64,000 nucleotides of DNA, taken from NCBI RefSeq assembly GCF_000372745.1, contig NZ_KB889673.1:17430-81429 (forward strand). The letters run 5' to 3'. Below, one piece after another: positions 43,829 to 53,371 of this stretch (positions within the stretch are counted from its first letter, which is position 1; every line of letters begins with the position of its first letter). The DNA comes from Embleya scabrispora DSM 41855. Lineage in GTDB: Bacteria > Actinomycetota > Actinomycetes > Streptomycetales > Streptomycetaceae. Under the pieces are notes generated by a model. The model worked only from the letters and a program-made list of their open reading frames with translations, ran no database searches and was not told the DNA's origin. A program made the translations under genes and the position numbers.

Positions 43829-46291
43829 TCAGAGGGTGAGTGTGGTAGTGATGTGCGGGTCGGCGGCGTGCCTGCCGATGGCCAGTCGGTAGGTGCCGGG
43901 CACCGTGGTCCAGGCGTTCGCCTCGGTGTCCCAGCGCTCGAGGGTCCGCGGTGTGACATGGACGCGGACGGCCTCGGTGGCACCGGCGGGGACGTCCACG
44001 GCGGTGAAGCCGATCAGCCGGATTGGTTCGGGTGCGCCGAACAGCGTGCCGTCCGCGGGTTCCAGGTACACCTGCACCACTTCGCGGCCGTCCCGCGTGC
44101 CGGCGTTGGTGAGTGTGACGTCGATGGTCAGGCCCTGGTCGGCATCGCCCTCGACCTCGGCGTCGTCGTAGCGCCAGTCGGTGTAGCCGAGCCCGTAGCC
44201 GAAGGGATAGGCGGGCTTGGTGCCGTGCCGTGCCCACAGGCGGTAGCCGATGGTGTGGCCTTCGGTGTAGTCGATTCCGCCGTCGACGACCTTCGTCGAC
44301 AGCAGCGGGACGTGCTCCTCCTCGGCCGGGAACGTCGAGGGCAGCCGGCCGCCGGGTTCGACCTCGCCGGTCAGGACGTCGGCAAGTGACGCACCGCCTT
44401 CCTGGCCGGGCAGCCATGCCCACAACACCGCGGCCACCTGGTCGCGCCACGGCATGAGAACCGGTGCACCCGCGTTGACGACGACGATGGTGTTCGGGTT
44501 CGCCTCGGCGATCCGGGCCACCAGTTCGTCGGTACGGCCGGGCAGTGCCAGGTTCTTGCGATCGAAGGATTCGGATTCGATGTCATCGGTGGTGCCCACG
44601 ACGACGATGGCGACATCGGCCGCGGCGGCGTCGGCGATCGCCTCGATGAGTTCCTCGTCGTCGGACAGCTGCGGGGCGCCCCAGCCCATGCCGATCTTGC
44701 CGAACAGGGTCTCGACCACACTGTGGAAGACCAGCTCGATGTCGACGGGCACGCCGGCCCGCGCGTCGACTTCCAGGCGCCGCACCGGCGGGCGCAGCAG
44801 CATCGCGCCCATGTCGGCGCTCTCGGCGGCCGAATGGATCTCGTGGGACACACCGTCGACCGTGAGCGTGAACGCGCCGGCGCCGACGACGTCGATCAGG
44901 TGGGTGCCGTCCACGACCGGGGTGAGTCCGGTGCGCATCGCCACGGCGGTGGTGCCCTCGGCCAAGGTGCCCGGCCAGAAGATCATGGCGGGATCGAGGC
45001 GCACGGCGGTGTCCAGCACGGTGCCGTCTGCGGCCCGGTATTCCAGGCCCACGCCCGGCTCGCCGGTGGCCGGGTCCACGACGGCGTCGCGAGGCAGCAC
45101 GGGCAGGTACCGGTGGGTGAACGCGCCGGACCGTACCGTCAATTCGACGTCGGGACCGAGGGCGGCCCGCAGTCCCTCGGGGACCCCGACGATGTGCTCG
45201 GGGTTGACGTGCGCGGAGCCGCCGCCCTGGGCGGACAGGCGTACCGCGTTCGGGCCGATCAACGCGACCCGGCGCAGCGCCGAGGCATCCAGTGGGAGCG
45301 CCCGGGCACGGTTCTCCAGCAGCACCATGGCGCGGGCCGCAACCGCGCGGAGCTGCGCCGTGGCGTCCACCGGAGTGCTCGTGTGGCTCCGCGTGACTTC
45401 CTCGTCGAGCACACCGACGCGGGCGGCGAGTCGCAGGATGCGCAGCACCTTGTCGTCCAGGACGGCCTCGTCGACCCGGCCGGCACGGACCGCCTCGACG
45501 AGCGGTTCGAGCCACTGCGTGGTGGGGCCCGGCATGGCGACGTCGGTGCCTCCGACGGCGGCGGGCTCGGTGGAGCGGACCGCCGTCCAGTCGGAGACCA
45601 CGACACCGTCGAAGCCCCACTCGTCCTTGAGGACGTCGTTCTGCAACCGGGAGTTCTCGGTCATCGACGCGCCGTTGACCGAGTTGTACGCCGACATCAC
45701 GAGCCACACCCGGGCCTCGCGTACCGCCGCCTCGAACGGCGCGAGGTAGATCTCGCGCAGCGCGCGCTCGTCCACGCGGCTGTCATAGGACATGCGTTCG
45801 TCCTCGGAGTCGTTCGCGACGAAGTGCTTGATCGTCGCGGCGACTCCGGTCGACTGGACGCCCTCGATGAACGCGACGGCGGTCCGCGAGGTGAGCAGCG
45901 GGTCCTCGGAGTAGCACTCGAAGTGGCGCCCGCCCAGCGGGGTGCGGTGCATGTTCACGGTCGGTGCCAGCAGGATGTGGACGTCCCTGTCCAGGGCCTG
46001 CGTGCCCATCAGGTGGCCCACTCGGCGGGCCGTCTCCGGATCCCAGGTCGCCGCGGTCGCGGTGGGGCAGGGGAATAGCAGCGAGGTCTCGCGCTCGCCC
46101 ATGTTGACGCCGCGCACTCCCGCCGGGCCGTCGGACATGCGCAGCGCGCGCAGGCCGATCTGCGGCAGTTCGGCCAGCGACCACATGTCGTGGCCGGCGA
46201 CCAGGCGCACCTTGTCTTCGAGGGTGAGTCGGCCCAGCAGGGCGGTCGGGTCGTGGGCGTCGGCCGGGTCCGGCGGGATGAGGCGGTTCAT
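43829..46291 (-). CDS. GH3 beta-glucosidase with PA14-like insert
   Basis: An 820-aa glycoside hydrolase family 3 protein. The N-terminal barrel contains RMSDGPAGVRG, GGRHFECYSEDP, TIKHFVANDSEDER and the nucleophile Asp in VVVSDWTA. The C-terminal domain starts near ARAMVLLENRARALPL, with a PA14-type beta insert in the middle (ADGTVLDTAVRLDP region) and a fibronectin-III-like end. No signal peptide, so it acts inside the cell on an imported glycoside. The ATG at 46291 has GGAG six bases upstream; an ATG at 46303 has none. It is 88 bases after the Liv-type binding-protein gene. Confidence 0.92.
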   Translation of the reverse strand: MNRLIPPDPADAHDPTALLGRLTLEDKVRLVAGHDMWSLAELPQIGLRALRMSDGPAGVRGVNMGERETSLLFPCPTATAATWDPETARRVGHLMGTQALDRDVHILLAPTVNMHRTPLGGRHFECYSEDPLLTSRTAVAFIEGVQSTGVAATIKHFVANDSEDERMSYDSRVDERALREIYLAPFEAAVREARVWLVMSAYNSVNGASMTENSRLQNDVLKDEWGFDGVVVSDWTAVRSTEPAAVGGTDVAMPGPTTQWLEPLVEAVRAGRVDEAVLDDKVLRILRLAARVGVLDEEVTRSHTSTPVDATAQLRAVAARAMVLLENRARALPLDASALRRVALIGPNAVRLSAQGGGSAHVNPEHIVGVPEGLRAALGPDVELTVRSGAFTHRYLPVLPRDAVVDPATGEPGVGLEYRAADGTVLDTAVRLDPAMIFWPGTLAEGTTAVAMRTGLTPVVDGTHLIDVVGAGAFTLTVDGVSHEIHSAAESADMGAMLLRPPVRRLEVDARAGVPVDIELVFHSVVETLFGKIGMGWGAPQLSDDEELIEAIADAAAADVAIVVVGTTDDIESESFDRKNLALPGRTDELVARIAEANPNTIVVVNAGAPVLMPWRDQVAAVLWAWLPGQEGGASLADVLTGEVEPGGRLPSTFPAEEEHVPLLSTKVVDGGIDYTEGHTIGYRLWARHGTKPAYPFGYGLGYTDWRYDDAEVEGDADQGLTIDVTLTNAGTRDGREVVQVYLEPADGTLFGAPEPIRLIGFTAVDVPAGATEAVRVHVTPRTLERWDTEANAWTTVPGTYRLAIGRHAADPHITTTLTL

Positions 46292-46334
46292 GTTCGACTC
46301 CATGGCTTGCGTGTGTGTGCTTTGCCCGGCTGCC

Positions 46335-46382
46335 GCGGAACAATCAGCAGAGCAATCGGCGGAGCAATCAGCTGAGCAGTCA
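46335..46382. repeat. 12-bp tandem repeat, four units
   Basis: Units 46335-46346, 46347-46358, 46359-46370 and 46371-46382, consensus GCGGAGCAATCA with one to three changes each. The block covers the stop codon of the binding-protein gene (46380-46382) and the spacer before the GH3 gene. Confidence 0.85.
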
Positions 46383-47687
46383 GGACGGCACCGCGATGAA
46401 GCGGTTGGTGCCCGGCTCGTACGCCTGGACCCGGAAGGGGAGCGCGCCGCTCGGCGTCCGCTGCGCGTACATCGCGTCTTCCCGGTAGTTGGGCAGGCGG
46501 TACTTCCCAAGGCCGAACCCGGCCTGCTGGAAGGTGTTGTAGTTCAGGTCCTTGCCGGTCTTCCCGGCGATCGCCTTGAACAGGGAGAGGTTGATGCAGG
46601 CCGTCTGGACGGATCCACCCAGGGTCGGCAGGCCGGGGGCAACGGTGGTGGGGTCGACGAGCTTGCCGGTGAGCGAGGGGTCGGCCTGCTCGACGGTGTG
46701 CACGCAGTCCACGATCTGCGGTTCCGTCCAGTCCAGAACGGGGTTGACCACCACCGAGCCGGTGAGCGTGCCGAAGTCGTGCCGGCCCTTGTCCTGCGTG
46801 TAGCCCGAGGGGTTGAGGCTGAACAGCAGGCGCGGGCGCCAGTCCGACTTCTCCAGGATCACCGGTATCTGCGAGGCCGCGCCGCCGGTCAGCAGGATCG
46901 CGTCGGCCCCCGCGGTCCGGGCCTTCTGCAGGAGGACGGTGCCCTGCTGCAGGGTCGCGGCCGGGTCGCCGGCGGTCGACGCGAGGTAGCCGGTGGCGAC
47001 GGGCGCGGCGCCGTTGCGCTCGAGCGCGGGCAGGAGGATGTTCTCGGCGTCCGTCCGCCCCTGGGTATCGGCGACGACGGCGACCTTCTTGCCCGTCAGG
47101 TCGCCGTGCGCCGCGAGCGCGTCGACGGCCTTGGCGGAGGCGTCGCCGTCGATGTCGGTGAACCAGGGGGCCTGGGCCTGCGCGTACAGCGCGGCCGGCA
47201 TGGCCCCGCCGATCAGTGCGGTCTTGTGGGTCTGGACGTAGCACGAGGTCTGGTCCGCGATGGGCAGCATGCCCAGGACGGCGAAGACCTTCTCGTCCTC
47301 GGTGAGCTTCACACAGGTCTCCTGGGCGGAGGCCGGAGCAAGCAGGTTGATCTTCGCGAACACGGGGACGATCTTGCGGCCGTTGATCCCACCTGCGGCG
47401 TTGATCTTGGCGATCAGCGCCTTGTAGGCGACCTCGAAGTCACCCGCGTCGAGGTTGACGAACGGCTTGAGCGCGGCGAAGTCGGGGTAGACGACGCCGA
47501 TCCTGATGCTGTCCGCGGTGACCCCCGGCGCCGCCGCCGGCACGGCCGAAGCGTTCGAACCGGAGGAGGTGGTGGGCGACTTCTTGTCCTCGACGGTGCA
47601 GCCCGCCGCGGCTGCCGCCACGCACAGCGCGGCCAGTATCGAGGTGGCACGCCGGGCGGTCGGACGGATACGTCTGGTGGTGGTCAT
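46380..47687 (-). CDS. Branched-chain-amino-acid-type ABC binding lipoprotein
   Basis: A 435-aa type 1 periplasmic-binding-fold protein. The lipoprotein signal is basic TTTRRIRPTARRATS, hydrophobic ILAALCVAAAA and lipobox AAAGC. The mature part shows the Leu/Ile/Val-binding layout: IRIGVVYPDFAALKP, ALIAKINAAGGINGRKIVPV and KVAVVADTQGRTDAENI. It delivers its ligand to the fused Liv permeases encoded just upstream on the same strand. The start is the ATG at 47687; an in-frame extension upstream would be translated 18-bp repeats. Confidence 0.9.
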   Translation of the reverse strand: MTTTRRIRPTARRATSILAALCVAAAAAGCTVEDKKSPTTSSGSNASAVPAAAPGVTADSIRIGVVYPDFAALKPFVNLDAGDFEVAYKALIAKINAAGGINGRKIVPVFAKINLLAPASAQETCVKLTEDEKVFAVLGMLPIADQTSCYVQTHKTALIGGAMPAALYAQAQAPWFTDIDGDASAKAVDALAAHGDLTGKKVAVVADTQGRTDAENILLPALERNGAAPVATGYLASTAGDPAATLQQGTVLLQKARTAGADAILLTGGAASQIPVILEKSDWRPRLLFSLNPSGYTQDKGRHDFGTLTGSVVVNPVLDWTEPQIVDCVHTVEQADPSLTGKLVDPTTVAPGLPTLGGSVQTACINLSLFKAIAGKTGKDLNYNTFQQAGFGLGKYRLPNYREDAMYAQRTPSGALPFRVQAYEPGTNRFIAVPS

Positions 47688-47807: not shown

Positions 47808-50621
47808 TCAGGTGGGCACCGCGTCGCTGCGTTCGATGGCGCGTTCGTCGGTGCCGAGGTAACTCGCGACGACCTTCGGGTCGTTGCGTACGGCGGACGG
47901 TGCGCCGGTGGCGATGACGCGGCCGGTCTCCAGGCAGTACACGCGGTCGCTGATGCCCATGATCAGCGGCATGTCGTGCTCGATGATCAGCATGGACGCG
48001 CCGAGTTCGCGGCGGATCTCGCGAATGAGCGGGCCGAATGCCTCCGTCTCGCGCTGTGCGACACCGGCGGTCGGCTCGTCCAGACACAGGACGCGGGCGT
48101 CCAGCGCGAGCAGACCGGCGAGCTCGACGATCCGCCGGGTGCCGGTGGACAGGTCGCCGATGAACGCGTTGGCGTATCGGCCGAGGCCCAGGAAGTCGAT
48201 GAGGTCGTGTGCCTCGGCCTTCTTGGCGCGCTCCCCCTTCAGGGATTTGGGCAGCCACAGCGCGGACGACAGCAGTCCGGTACGTCCGCGCGCCTCCAGG
48301 GCGATCTGCACGGTCTCGGTGACCGTGAGCTCGGGGAAGAGCGTCGCGGCCTGGAAGGTGCGGCCCAAGCCGACGGACGCGCGGCGCGCGGGCGCCAGTG
48401 TGGACACGTCCCGGCCGAGGAGTTCGATGGTGCCGGTGGCCGGGACGAACCCGCCGATGGCGTTCATCAGGGTGGACTTGCCCGCGCCGTTGGTGCCGAT
48501 CAGGCCGACGATCTCGTTCGGCATGACCTCGATCGCCACGCCGTCGACGGCGGCGACGCCGCCGAACCTGACGCGGATGTTCGAGGTCGCCAGCACCGGC
48601 TTCCCGGCGGGCAGCGGTGCGCGCTCCGTGGGGGTGAGCGACGTGGGGACGGCACCGACGGTCTTCGCGGGTGCCGGGCCCAGACGTTGTTCCGCCCAGG
48701 AGAGCACGTCATCGCGCATCGCGTAGCCGATCTGGACCAGACCGCCGGGGAAGTACAGCAGCAGCATCAGCAGGCCGAGGCTGGAGGCGAGCAGCGGCAC
48801 GATGGAGTTGCCGGGGAACACGGCGGGCAGGCCGATCACCCACAACGATCCCCATACCGGCCCCGAGGTGGTGCCGAGTCCGCCGATGACGACGACGGAT
48901 ACCAGCATGAGGGAGTCCGCGCTGCGGAAGTAGGCGTCGCTGTAGGGCACCGTCTGGAGCGCGCCCGCGAGCAGCGCTCCGCCGAGTCCGGCGACGCCTC
49001 CTGCCAGGGCGAACGCCCGCAGCTTCACGCGGGCCGCGGGGACGGTGTACGCGGATGCGGTCGCCGGGTTGTCGCGTACCCCGATCGTGGTCCGGCCCAC
49101 GCCCGTGCGGCGCAGCCTGCCGGTCACCGCGAGCACGGCCACGAGCACGACCAACACCACGTAGTAGTAGGGGCGTTGCGCGGTGATGTCGATCCCGAAG
49201 ACGTCGGTGCGCGGGAAGGACGCGGCGGTCTGCGTCGGACTGTCGTGGAACATGTCCTGGGTGTAGACCCACTGCTCGCAGGCGACCGCGAACGCGAGGG
49301 TGCTGACCGCGAGCAGCAGTCCCCGCACGCGCAGTGCGCCGGCGCCGATCACGGCGGCGAGCGCCGCGGTCAGCAGCGCCGCGACGCACACGGCGGTGGG
49401 GAACGTCAGGCGCTGGACCACGAGGACGTTGCCGCCGCCGATGTCCAGCCGCAGTCCGCGCGAGAGCGATGCCGCGGTGAGCGCGCCGATCCCGGCGAAC
49501 GCCATCTGCCCGAGCGAGAGTTGCCCGGCCCAGCCGGTGAGCACGGTGACCGAGGCGGCGCAGATCGCGTACGCCAGGATGGTCGTGTAGAGCAGCTGCT
49601 TGGACGGCTGCGTGACGAGCAGCGGCATGACGACCGCGATCAGCCCGAGGAACACCAGGCCGAACCGCTCCAGGTTGCGCACCCACCACAGTTCTTGGAG
49701 GCGTACCGGGATCGGCCGGACCTTGGGCGCGAAGGAGAACGTCGACGCCTCGGTGTCCCGGCCGCGCCCCACGACGAACACCGCGACCAGGACGAGCGCG
49801 AAGACGATCATGTCGGTCAGGCCGGGCCGGTCGATCCAGTTGAACTGGACGACGGATTCGAGGAACCCGAGGAGTACTCCGGCGACCAGGGCGACCCGGA
49901 AGGAGACCATGCGGGCGATCACCGCGGCCGCCAGCGCCCTCATCAGGGTGGTCATGCCCAGTACCGCGGGGGAACCGACCGATCCGGTGCGGCCGGAGAT
50001 GAGGATCAGGCAGATCGTCGCGACGAGCCCGGCGATCGCCCATACCGCGGTGGAGACGGCCTTGGGGCTGATGCCGTTGAGCCTGGCCAGGTCCGGGTTG
50101 TCCGCCGACGCCTTGACCGTCTTGCCGAGCACGGTACGGGCGAGGAACCAGCCCAGCGCGACGGCGACGAGCGGGACGACGACGAGCACGGCGAGCTGGG
50201 TCGCGGTGACCTCTACGCCGGCGGGACTCCACTTCGCCGCGGACCACACCGGATACGAGTTGGCGGCGTCGACCTCCGGATAGGCCATGACGATCACCAG
50301 CGCCAGCTGGGCGACGCCGATCGTGGCGACCAACAGGATCACCCGGGGTGCGGCGAACAGGCGTCGGACCACGACGAGGTCGACGACCGCGCCGAATACG
50401 GTGCCGACGACGAGGGAGACGGCCAGCGCGATACAGAACGGTACGCCGTAGCGGAGGTTCAGCAGGGCGAACAGCGCTGAGCCGACCAGACCCATGTTGG
50501 CGACGGCGAAGCTGACGATGCGGGTGGAGCGGTGGACGAGGACGATGCCCATCGCGAGCAGGCCGATGACCATGCCGTTGACGACGCCGTCGAAGGCGAG
50601 CTGCCGGGTGAGTTCGATCAT
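47808..50621 (-). CDS. Fused LivH-LivM-LivG transporter
   Basis: A 937-aa triple fusion of a branched-chain-amino-acid-type ABC importer. Residues about 1-290 are the LivH permease (GVVNGMVIGLLAMGIVLVHR). Residues about 325-645 are LivM (ILAYAICAASVTVLTGWAGQ, LSLGQMAFAGIG). Residues about 690-930 are the LivG ATPase with Walker A GTNGAGKST, signature LSTGTRRIVELAG, Walker B VLCLDEPTAGV and switch EHDM. The usual system uses three genes. The missing LivF ATPase is fused to an MFS protein in the adjacent gene. The ATG at 50621 is two bases after the upstream stop. Confidence 0.92.
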   Translation of the reverse strand: MIELTRQLAFDGVVNGMVIGLLAMGIVLVHRSTRIVSFAVANMGLVGSALFALLNLRYGVPFCIALAVSLVVGTVFGAVVDLVVVRRLFAAPRVILLVATIGVAQLALVIVMAYPEVDAANSYPVWSAAKWSPAGVEVTATQLAVLVVVPLVAVALGWFLARTVLGKTVKASADNPDLARLNGISPKAVSTAVWAIAGLVATICLILISGRTGSVGSPAVLGMTTLMRALAAAVIARMVSFRVALVAGVLLGFLESVVQFNWIDRPGLTDMIVFALVLVAVFVVGRGRDTEASTFSFAPKVRPIPVRLQELWWVRNLERFGLVFLGLIAVVMPLLVTQPSKQLLYTTILAYAICAASVTVLTGWAGQLSLGQMAFAGIGALTAASLSRGLRLDIGGGNVLVVQRLTFPTAVCVAALLTAALAAVIGAGALRVRGLLLAVSTLAFAVACEQWVYTQDMFHDSPTQTAASFPRTDVFGIDITAQRPYYYVVLVVLVAVLAVTGRLRRTGVGRTTIGVRDNPATASAYTVPAARVKLRAFALAGGVAGLGGALLAGALQTVPYSDAYFRSADSLMLVSVVVIGGLGTTSGPVWGSLWVIGLPAVFPGNSIVPLLASSLGLLMLLLYFPGGLVQIGYAMRDDVLSWAEQRLGPAPAKTVGAVPTSLTPTERAPLPAGKPVLATSNIRVRFGGVAAVDGVAIEVMPNEIVGLIGTNGAGKSTLMNAIGGFVPATGTIELLGRDVSTLAPARRASVGLGRTFQAATLFPELTVTETVQIALEARGRTGLLSSALWLPKSLKGERAKKAEAHDLIDFLGLGRYANAFIGDLSTGTRRIVELAGLLALDARVLCLDEPTAGVAQRETEAFGPLIREIRRELGASMLIIEHDMPLIMGISDRVYCLETGRVIATGAPSAVRNDPKVVASYLGTDERAIERSDAVPT

Positions 50622-50623
50622 GG

Positions 50624-52885
50624 TCAGCCACCGTCCTTGCCGAGGAACACCGCACGGGCGAGGTCGTCGCGTTCGGCGAGCTCGCGGGCGTCGCCGGTGA
50701 ACCGGACCTGCCCCTTCTCCAGGAAGACCGCCCGGTCGGCGATCGCCAGCGCCACATTCAGGGACTGCTCGACGATGATCATCGTCATGCCGTCCGCCTT
50801 GAGGCGCTCGACCACCGCGAGCAGGTCCTGGACCACGACGGGGGCGAGGCCGAGCGAGAGTTCGTCGATGAGCAGCACCTCGGGGTCGTGCATCAGCACC
50901 ATGGCGAGGGCGAGTTGTTGCTGCTGGCCGCCGGACATGCTGCCCGCCCGCTGGGCGAGGCGGGCGTTCAGGTCGGGGAACACGTCCAGCACATAGGCGA
51001 GTCGGGCGTCGCGGTGTGCCCGGTCCCGGTCGCGGAGCCCGAACGCGGCCATCTCCAGGTTCTCCGCCACGGTCATGCCGGGGAAGGTGCCCTTGCCGCC
51101 GGGCAGCAGGCGGATGCCGTACCGGCCGCGCTGCTCGGGCGAGACGTACGTGATGGTCTTCCCGTTGAGCCGGACCACGCCGCGAGAGGGGGTCCCCAGG
51201 CCGCAGATCGCCTTCAGGATCGTGGACTTGCCGGCGCCGTTCGTCCCCAGGAGGGCGAGGACTTCGCCGCGCCGGACTTCGAACCCGACGCCGAACAGCA
51301 CCTGCACGTTGCCGTATTCGAAGTCGATGTTGTTGACCTGGAGCACCGGGACCTGCTCGGGGTCCCGGGCCTGGCGATCCCTCTCGGCGAGCTCCTCCTG
51401 GAGCTCACGGACGACCAAGGCCAGGTCGTGCTTGATGAACGAGGAACTGCGGATCAGCATCAGGCTGCCCACCAGCGTCGCCGGGACGCCGATGACCAGT
51501 GCCGCCGCGCGCGCGTCGTAGGAGTCCAGGATGAGCGCGGACAGCAGCGAACCGCCGGTCGCGCCGATGAAGAAGATGTAGATCGCCGCGAGCGCCGTGC
51601 CCAATCCGCGCAGTCGGTACGGGGATACGGACTGCATGACCGGGCCGATCATCGCGAACGCCGCGGACAGGAGGACGAGCGGCAACATCTGTGCGATGAC
51701 GAATGCGGGCGCGGTCGGCATGAACCACTGCACCGGCGTCAGCGCCGCCACCGGCAGGATCAGGTAGCCGACCAGCTTCAGGGCGCGCGCCGGGTCGGTG
51801 CGGTAGAGCCGGTCGTAACGGGGGCCGACGAACGGCAGGACGGCCAGCACGCCCAGTCCGCCCAGGGTGCCGTACACCCCGCGTTCGAAGGTGCCGAGCC
51901 CGAAGTGGTCCTCCATCCACAGGTTGGTCAGCACCGGTCCGGTGAACAGGCCGAAACCCATCGCCGCGAACGCCAGGATGACCGTCTTGGTGGTGCGGAT
52001 GCGCATCAGCCGGGCGAACGCCGCCTCGACCGAGATCGGCATCGGCTTGTCGTGGGTGATGACCTCGCCGAGCACCGCCTTCATCTCGTGCTGTCCGCGC
52101 GGGGGTTCGGGCAGCCGGAAGGCGTACAGCGCCACAAGCGCGGTGGGGACGCCCAGGACGAAGAACGCCCAGCGCCAGCCGTCGTCGCCGCCGGCCACGG
52201 CGGCGATCGCGCCGACCACCAGCGGGCTCAGCACCCCCGCGAGGCGGCCCGCCATACCGGTTGCCGCGGCGATGCGGCCCCGTACCCCGATGGGGTAGGC
52301 GTCCGCGTTCAGCGAGCCGTGCACCGGCAGTGTGCTGGCCTTGGCCACCCCGACGCCCAGCCGGGCGAGGAACATCAGGAATACGTTCGCCGCCATACCG
52401 CATGCGAACACGAAGGCGGCGAAGGCCAGTCCGGCCCATCCCGCGACCCTGCCGCGCCGGTACCGGTCCGCCAGCCAGCCCATCGGCAGCGCACCGAGCA
52501 CCAGGAACGCGCCCGACGCCGCCGACAGGAACACGATCGCTCCGTCGCTCATCCCGAACGAGTCTCGGATGTCCGGGGCGAGCACGCCCAGCGTCGCGGT
52601 CTCCAACTCGTCGAACGCGGACAGCGCCATCAGCGTCAGGAACGTCGCCGACCCGCCTGCGGCAAGACCCCGTCGGAGCGTCAACTGCTCGCCGCCCACC
52701 CCGGGCAACAGATCGTCGGCGAAGAGCACCCCACGTTCGGCCTCGGCCGCCCGGGCACGTGTCGCCTCGGCATCGACGAGTTCGGCGGCCAGGCCCGCGG
52801 CGGAGCGGCGCTGCTCGTCCCGAGGCGCGACCACCTCGATGGCATCGTCCCTGGTGGCATCGTCCACCGCGCCGCTCACCGGCAA
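50624..52885 (-). CDS. MFS permease fused to LivF-type ABC ATPase
   Basis: A 753-aa hybrid. Residues about 1-65 are a charged cytoplasmic start; about 70-490 form an MFS permease with about 12 membrane segments and the MFS loop motif GWLADRYRRGR. Residues about 505-750 form a LivF ATPase: Walker A GTNGAGKST, signature MSGGQQQQLALAM, Walker B VLLIDELSLGL. Joined with the LivHMG chain it completes a Liv-type importer, with an extra secondary carrier attached. The start is uncertain: TTG 52885 or GTG 52879, with no clear ribosome binding site. Confidence 0.9.
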   Translation of the reverse strand: MPVSGAVDDATRDDAIEVVAPRDEQRRSAAGLAAELVDAEATRARAAEAERGVLFADDLLPGVGGEQLTLRRGLAAGGSATFLTLMALSAFDELETATLGVLAPDIRDSFGMSDGAIVFLSAASGAFLVLGALPMGWLADRYRRGRVAGWAGLAFAAFVFACGMAANVFLMFLARLGVGVAKASTLPVHGSLNADAYPIGVRGRIAAATGMAGRLAGVLSPLVVGAIAAVAGGDDGWRWAFFVLGVPTALVALYAFRLPEPPRGQHEMKAVLGEVITHDKPMPISVEAAFARLMRIRTTKTVILAFAAMGFGLFTGPVLTNLWMEDHFGLGTFERGVYGTLGGLGVLAVLPFVGPRYDRLYRTDPARALKLVGYLILPVAALTPVQWFMPTAPAFVIAQMLPLVLLSAAFAMIGPVMQSVSPYRLRGLGTALAAIYIFFIGATGGSLLSALILDSYDARAAALVIGVPATLVGSLMLIRSSSFIKHDLALVVRELQEELAERDRQARDPEQVPVLQVNNIDFEYGNVQVLFGVGFEVRRGEVLALLGTNGAGKSTILKAICGLGTPSRGVVRLNGKTITYVSPEQRGRYGIRLLPGGKGTFPGMTVAENLEMAAFGLRDRDRAHRDARLAYVLDVFPDLNARLAQRAGSMSGGQQQQLALAMVLMHDPEVLLIDELSLGLAPVVVQDLLAVVERLKADGMTMIIVEQSLNVALAIADRAVFLEKGQVRFTGDARELAERDDLARAVFLGKDGG

Positions 52886-53371
52886 CGCCCGTACCGCGTG
52901 GGCCGGTTGCGCCCAACTGCCACCTGCGGCCGTGCCGGAGGGTGCGATCGCCGGCCCTGTCGCCCGTGGGACGGATCAGGCGCAGGGGGAAGGAAGGTCG
53001 TACACATCGGGCATCCTCGCGGCTCGGAACGGTCACCACACAGACGAACCCGCAGGCGTGACACCCCGACCGCGCGTATGCGGCCGGGACGTCTCCCGGT
53101 GCGGAGCCCAATTGTTTATTCCAGATTAAATAAATGTCCAGACCCTGAAGGGGAGGACTTCTCGGGGCCGTTCAGGCACGGCGCCGCGTCGGGGTGTGCC
53201 GACCACCATCGCGGCCGAGAACGCCACACGCCCTGCAGGCATCGGGCCTGCAGGGCGTGTGGTCGACTCCCCCCGGGGGAGCAGCCAGGCGGGTCGGCGG
53301 GTCGGCGTCCGGAGGATCACCGCGTGGGCGGGGTACGGGGATCCGCCGCCGTGGTCGGCCGAGTGGGTCGC
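52886..53371. other. Promoter and terminator region upstream of the Liv operon
   Basis: No gene is seen. It should hold the promoter of the Liv-type operon; an AT-richer patch with TTGTTTATTCCAGATTAAAT is at about 53111-53131. The hairpin at 53224-53262 separates it from the hydrolase gene that ends at 53372. Confidence 0.5.
53224..53262. terminator. Hairpin terminator
   Basis: Perfect 17-bp inverted repeat: arms 53224-53240 and 53246-53262 with a five-base loop. It lies about 110 bases after the stop of the minus-strand alpha/beta hydrolase gene and probably ends that transcript. No T-tract follows. Confidence 0.8.

Follow-up and report, generated by a model that had tools for sequence, protein, structure and literature searches.

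Transporters are classed by their energy source: ABC systems use ATP and MFS carriers use gradients. The gene at 50624-52885 on the minus strand of the window, by which we mean the whole 64,000-nucleotide stretch of DNA that was analysed, raises the question of whether both principles can be combined within one machine. A preliminary description had read it as a 12-segment MFS permease carrying the sequence GWLADRYRRGR, followed by a LivF-type ATPase, and had placed it beside a gene that fuses LivH, LivM and LivG.

Architecture of the fusion gene and its operon

ORF reading indicated that 50624-52885 is a single frame of 753 aa with zero internal stops. Whether the TTG at 52885 is the true start is uncertain; conservation among relatives sets in at about residue 28. 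Pfam matched MFS_1 at residues 90-438 of this frame (E 1.4e-32) and ABC_tran at residues 532-675 (E 9.4e-28), and GWLADRYRRGR, at residues 136-146, is MFS motif A. The chain begins with an extension at residues 28-71 (52673-52804), recognised from the alignment and a structure model, that carries a conserved LLPGVG motif and a helix at residues 29-50 predicted with low confidence. This is followed by a Spinster-like MFS domain at residues 72-485 (51431-52672; Pfam, profile and model) with 12 predicted membrane helices, by a linker helix at residues 484-507 (51365-51436; alignment and model), and by a LivF ATPase domain at residues 513-753 (50627-51349), in which Pfam and motif reading located Walker A (GTNGAGKST), the signature MSGGQ and Walker B (LLIDE), all on the minus strand. 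The AlphaFold2 model of the fusion (31-sequence alignment, mean pLDDT 81.7, pTM 0.74) contains 12 membrane-length helical segments within residues 79-480, the separate helix at 484-507 and an ATPase fold. Frame, Pfam and model thus agree on the permease and ATPase that had been claimed, and the MFS_1 profile match, the 12 helices and motif A, by which the MFS superfamily is recognised, are all present.

Five residues of the linker (D487, V492, E494, E497 and E501) are invariant across the 31 aligned sequences; of the 16 standalone MFS relatives, 15 share D487, which is therefore no marker of fusion. Conservation of this helix, and the invariance of V492, E494, E497 and E501, would suit a sensor or gate (a transceptor), in which the MFS domain binds ligand and controls the ATPase via the linker. 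Precedents are found in the available text of two papers, on SLC5/STAC histidine kinases (PMC9100948) and on the sensor kinase-MFS fusions of family 2.A.1.34 (PMC3924187), in which an MFS domain likewise has a functional partner but the partner is a kinase. Nothing specific speaks against a sensor, as the intact gating relay described below suits carrier and sensor alike, and we regard this role as conceivable but rather unlikely.

Two nucleotides past the MFS-LivF stop, an ATG opens a second fusion of 937 aa (47808-50621, minus strand; ORF, Pfam and profile). As had been claimed, this neighbour holds LivH, LivM and LivG: Pfam and profiles placed a LivH permease domain at residues 1-300 (49722-50621) and a LivM permease domain at residues 316-655 (48657-49676), and Pfam and motif reading placed a LivG ATPase domain, with the H-loop His present, at residues 670-937 (47811-48614). 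The statement that two chains hold every Liv component stood for LivH, LivM, LivG and LivF but not for LivK, which is a separate gene on the same strand (47774-46380; 464 aa, Peripla_BP_6 by Pfam) with a lipobox-like AAGC seen by eye. The locus therefore has the parts expected of HAAT/Liv importers (LivKHMGF): two BPD_transp_2-type permease domains found by Pfam, a Peripla_BP_6 binding protein inside the operon, and LivG and LivF ATPases with Walker A, Walker B and signature motifs. It differs from these importers in that H, M and G are fused, in that an MFS domain is joined to LivF, in a Glu-to-Gly change in the LivF Q-loop and in the signature of LivG, which reads LSTGT. When the LivHMG profile was compared with solved structures, the best stretch among the 60 matches listed was the ATPase end (residues 659-930), so that no solved LivH or LivM relative was among the matches listed.

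Upstream of the operon, a promoter-like site at 53111-53140 (minus strand) rests on a consensus match, with 1 found against 0.2 expected. A 16-bp inverted repeat with no T-run (53224-53262, minus strand) was seen by eye between the upstream alpha/beta hydrolase gene and the operon. At the other end, a GH3 glycosidase gene (43829-46510) lies directly downstream of LivK.

Persistence of the MFS-LivF link among relatives

Fusion relatives share 44-85% identity and the same architecture, which argues against both chance and assembly error; a fusion made in either way was ruled out by the 98 fused chains described below. The best match in a plasmid collection, from Embleya sp. NBC_00888, is 95.9% identical over the protein and lies in a stretch that has no gene annotation there. 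The window's genome itself carries a second copy of the fusion that is 62% identical and has its own LivHMG and LivK.

The architecture search that had been suggested for MFS-ABC fusions gave 125 MFS-bearing rows after deduplication on identical or contained MFS sequence, and in 98 of these MFS and LivF share one frame, always with MFS before LivF. The 27 rows without LivF in frame include a frame break (L209) and rows that end at the locus end (L049, L050, two rows of L051, and L241). In 93 of the 98 fused chains, Liv partners lie no more than 4 kb away on the same strand, and one chain contains all parts; three of the remaining four sit at locus ends. The partition of the genes is variable. 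Most often, MFS-F is accompanied by a downstream H-M-G (59 rows) or MFS-F-G by H-M (23 rows), more rarely MFS-F occurs beside H-M with G as a gene of its own (L140, L152 and L229), and in one row a Pfam-confirmed frame of 1728 aa (L246:5374-10560) reads LivH-LivM-MFS-LivF-LivG.

These arrangements bear on the possibility that the operon encodes two independent transporters on one mRNA, with the chain cleaved or LivF also produced from an internal start. MFS and LivF are contiguous in all 98 chains and stay so as their partners are rearranged, including in the MFS-F-G and H-M-MFS-F-G forms, and the linker between them is conserved. Neither frame contiguity nor linker conservation gave any sign of cleavage or of separate proteins, and we consider two independent transporters highly improbable.

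Related systems without an MFS domain were also found. H, M, F and G form one chain at L156, L157, L162 and L254 and are separate genes at L154, L158 and L161, while at L155 (7648-9867) the place of the MFS in a LivF-LivG chain is taken by another hydrophobic domain of about 200 aa, seen by eye and unmatched in Pfam. The ABC core can thus do without the MFS, which speaks to some degree for an anchor or sensor role and against a working carrier. On the LivF tree, MFS-less systems are interspersed among MFS-bearing ones with modest support, a pattern that fits either an early gain followed by losses or several gains.

We compared tree distances for the parts of the complex in 87 of the 96 length-filtered fused chains. 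Correlations were 0.896 for MFS and LivF, 0.891 for MFS and LivHM, and 0.924 for LivF and LivHM, and 0 of 1000 permutations reached the observed values in a test that ignores shared descent. Such agreement is as expected if the parts are inherited together. In the same 87 chains, long-range mean pairwise identity was 0.34 for MFS, against 0.577 for LivF and 0.405 for LivHM, so that MFS has diverged further than LivF over such distances. Together, the survival of the MFS-LivF link through rearrangements of the Liv parts and the agreement of the MFS, LivF and LivHM trees argue that the gene products form a hybrid machine, as had been proposed from the single locus; on these sequence comparisons, we regard that reading as well supported.

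Of 150 genomes sampled from the window's family, 7 contained full-length matches, and MFS and LivF were verified in one frame in 19 of 396 sampled from its phylum, the window's genome being included in both counts; 24 of the 396 had a match, 5 of them without MFS. At least 35 of 148 genomes of one class have the fusion, and 48 matched the MFS profile, some of these through standalone MFS proteins. A scan of a one-genome-per-species collection used short peptide patterns, which distant forms can escape; among the best 80 of its 104 loci, full-length relatives came from Yinghuangia, Streptomyces nymphaeiformis, Nocardioides marmoriginsengisoli and many Acidimicrobiia MAGs, the named relatives being mostly Acidimicrobiia, while the lower loci were MFS-only or ATPase-only. 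In the phylum of L052, a record named Rhodospirillales, 0 of 249 genomes matched at E 1e-60 in a search run without a positive control. One Acidimicrobiales chromosome (OX638344.1) carries 7 copies, and on it two divergent MFS-LivF/LivHMG operons lie within 20 kb (L251:1663-17486). Recurrence in many actinobacteria suggests joint operation of two transport machines that normally occur apart.

Selection, gating residues and ATP sites

Nei-Gojobori dN/dS values, which are rough in these high-GC genomes, were 0.081 for MFS, 0.160 for LivF, 0.163 for LivH and 0.323 for LivM against Embleya NBC_00888; 0.156, 0.167, 0.296 and 0.291, respectively, against L010; 0.170, 0.216, 0.286 and 0.205 against L011; and 0.279, 0.182, 0.309 and 0.276 against L013, the most distant. 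Constraint on the MFS domain is stronger than that on LivH and LivM in three of the four comparisons and about equal in the fourth. These values ruled out an unconstrained passenger domain.

By sequence, the closest solved relatives are Spns carriers: the family profile matched PDB entry 6e8j at 1.6e-20 and SPNS1 (9boi) at 2e-19, both mainly over the N-terminal half, followed by a D-galactonate transporter and SPNS2. Fold comparison was tied (Spns2 Z 38.1, OxlT 38.6, SV2A 38.5, SotB 38.5), and the Foldseek matches listed, the best 50 of each list, were ABC proteins. Entry 6e8j, titled only 'Major facilitator family transporter' in the PDB, we take to be HnSpns, a bacterial Spinster. This assignment is consistent with the residue numbers in PMC9440201, whose available text describes two salt bridges in HnSpns, Glu129:Arg42 and Asp41:Arg122, and a relay of Asp87-Arg91-Asp142. 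In the profile alignment, Glu129:Arg42 becomes Lys182:Thr96 in the window's protein, Asp41:Arg122 becomes Glu95:Arg175, and the relay becomes Asp140-Arg144-Asp195. The domain therefore shares the equivalents of the Asp41:Arg122 pair and of the motif-A relay with HnSpns, SPNS1 and SPNS2, but differs from them in having Lys in place of Glu129, a C-terminal ATPase and a Liv operon.

Residues were counted in 112 of the 125 rows, leaving out L209, L049, L050, L051, L241 and MFS matches shorter than 340 residues, with members called close when their MFS profile score exceeded 300. The motif-A charge relay is intact in all 58 close members, in 22 of 24 LivG-bearing chains and in 7 of 14 distant MFS-F chains. 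Of 96 fused chains, 72 retain the pair formed by an acid at 95 and Arg175, 23 have lost both partners and 1 has lost a single partner; among the 14 distant MFS-F chains, 6 retain it. On the tree, either side changes 7 times and both together require 8 changes, so that most changes coincide. At positions 96 and 182, the equivalents of HnSpns Arg42 and Glu129, exactly one residue is positive in 56 of the 58 close members, a pattern produced within these members by only 3-4 parsimony steps.

The Glu129 proton switch of Spns is itself missing. Of the 58 close members, 56 have Lys or Gln at its position and none has an acidic residue there, which makes a Spns-type proton drive unlikely in the window's branch; an acidic residue is found in 4 of 14 distant MFS-F chains and 3 of 24 LivG-bearing fused chains. 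The standalone MFS relatives (such as L208, L211 and L216) match the same MFS profile but are unfused and have no same-strand Liv genes within 4 kb; the position is non-acidic in 16 of 16 of these as well, and its loss is therefore not tied to fusion.

The same residues weigh on whether the MFS domain is an anchor or scaffold, a non-transporting part whose sole role is to keep LivF membrane-bound or to shape assembly. Such a role would fit L255 (7317-9320), where a degenerate membrane part, Pfam-negative for MFS, precedes LivF and adjoins a LivHMG fusion, and also the different hydrophobic domain of L155, the loss of the motif-A relay from half of the distant MFS-F chains and the non-acidic Glu129 equivalent in the window's branch. 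That branch, however, is under strong purifying selection, with covarying cavity charges and intact gating motifs, and the gating motifs are also intact in the MFS-F-G branch. The dN/dS values and the covariation of charged cavity residues make a pure scaffold unlikely for the window's branch, and the scaffold suggested in the preliminary description is weakened there, but this does not extend to every paralogue, L255 being degenerate. Purifying selection and cavity covariation instead favour an integral, working MFS carrier domain within the ABC complex over a passive anchor, and we put the prospects of that reading at about even.

UrtE and LivF were the top-scoring models for the fusion's ATPase, yet it fell under their curated cut-offs, and neither it nor the LivG ATPase reaches the NCBIfam equivalog cut-offs set for LivG, LivF and UrtD/E; its best solved match is 1ji0. 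Walker motifs are kept in both domains and the signature is kept in LivF. The LivF Q-loop has Gly where Glu is found in 1ji0 and in five of five own-genome LivF-like copies, and its H-loop has Gln (VEQ), as in four of those five, in counts that were not deduplicated. LivG, for its part, combines a retained H-loop His with LSTGT. This distribution of motifs would leave one of the two ATP sites canonical and weaken the other. Five of five MFS-less sisters (L155, L156, L157, L162 and L254) share the loss of the Q-loop Glu and the LSTGT signature, indicating that the changes mark this Liv branch rather than the fusion.

Proposed mechanism, known systems and neighbouring genes

We propose that MFS-LivF, LivH-LivM-LivG and LivK form one HAAT/Liv-type ABC importer with a permanently attached Spinster-like MFS domain, probably one per complex. 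LivK would hand an extracellular ligand to LivHM, and ATP hydrolysis by LivGF would take place mainly at the site of the LivG Walker motifs and the LivF signature. Beside LivHM and LivGF, the MFS domain would act as a true alternating-access carrier in the same membrane, moving without the classical Spns proton switch. Its cargo would probably be a related anionic, amphipathic compound, whether a product, a co-substrate or a deconjugated part. In the available text of PMC13192786, different substrates shift a mycobacterial Spns towards opposite states. More tentatively, and at well below even odds, the complex could be a primary-secondary hybrid, in which the MFS path carries an anionic partner (a product, a lipid or sulfate) in step with ABC import of a conjugated compound, and the LivF changes gate or drive the switch-less carrier. 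The coupling of ABC uptake to MFS exchange raised in the preliminary description is likewise a conjecture.

The preliminary description had left room for a routine architecture with known function. A full-text search of non-subscription literature returned no title or abstract describing an MFS-ABC ATPase fusion; public databases may well display such an architecture already. LplT-Aas also pairs an MFS with a functional partner, but in the available text of PMC11416262 that partner is an enzyme and not the ATPase of a primary transporter. A conserved family with an ABC system and an MFS in one chain and operon would offer a natural test of ATPase-driven or ATPase-gated MFS transport, and it would bear on the annotation of actinobacterial genes as 'MFS transporter' or 'LivF'.

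Neighbouring genes offer a lead to the substrate. Within the window, Pfam identified GH3 glycosidase and alpha/beta hydrolase genes on either side of the operon, and GH3-like genes resembling the window's lie near L164, L172, L175, L176, L009, L013/L168 and L144, with Embleya and Yinghuangia copies among them. Of 89 fetched loci, 19 contain a member of a sulfatase-like BLAST cluster close to the fused operon, and 17 of the 89 match its L029 member directly. No deduplication was applied to this set, in which L012 and L169 represent one site and many loci are orthologous to each other. The one cluster member checked by Pfam (L029:8951-10633) has sulfatase and choline-sulfatase C-terminal matches. 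Sulfatases were counted genome-wide in 10 genomes, 7 of them picked for a known sulfatase near the locus; the other 3 (G000, G018 and G404) had no listed sulfatase near the fused gene, and given this biased choice we claim no enrichment. As a lead only, the GH3, alpha/beta hydrolase and sulfatase-like neighbours hint at conjugated substrates. Among the loci with such sulfatase-like genes are L012 (6031-7944) and L127.
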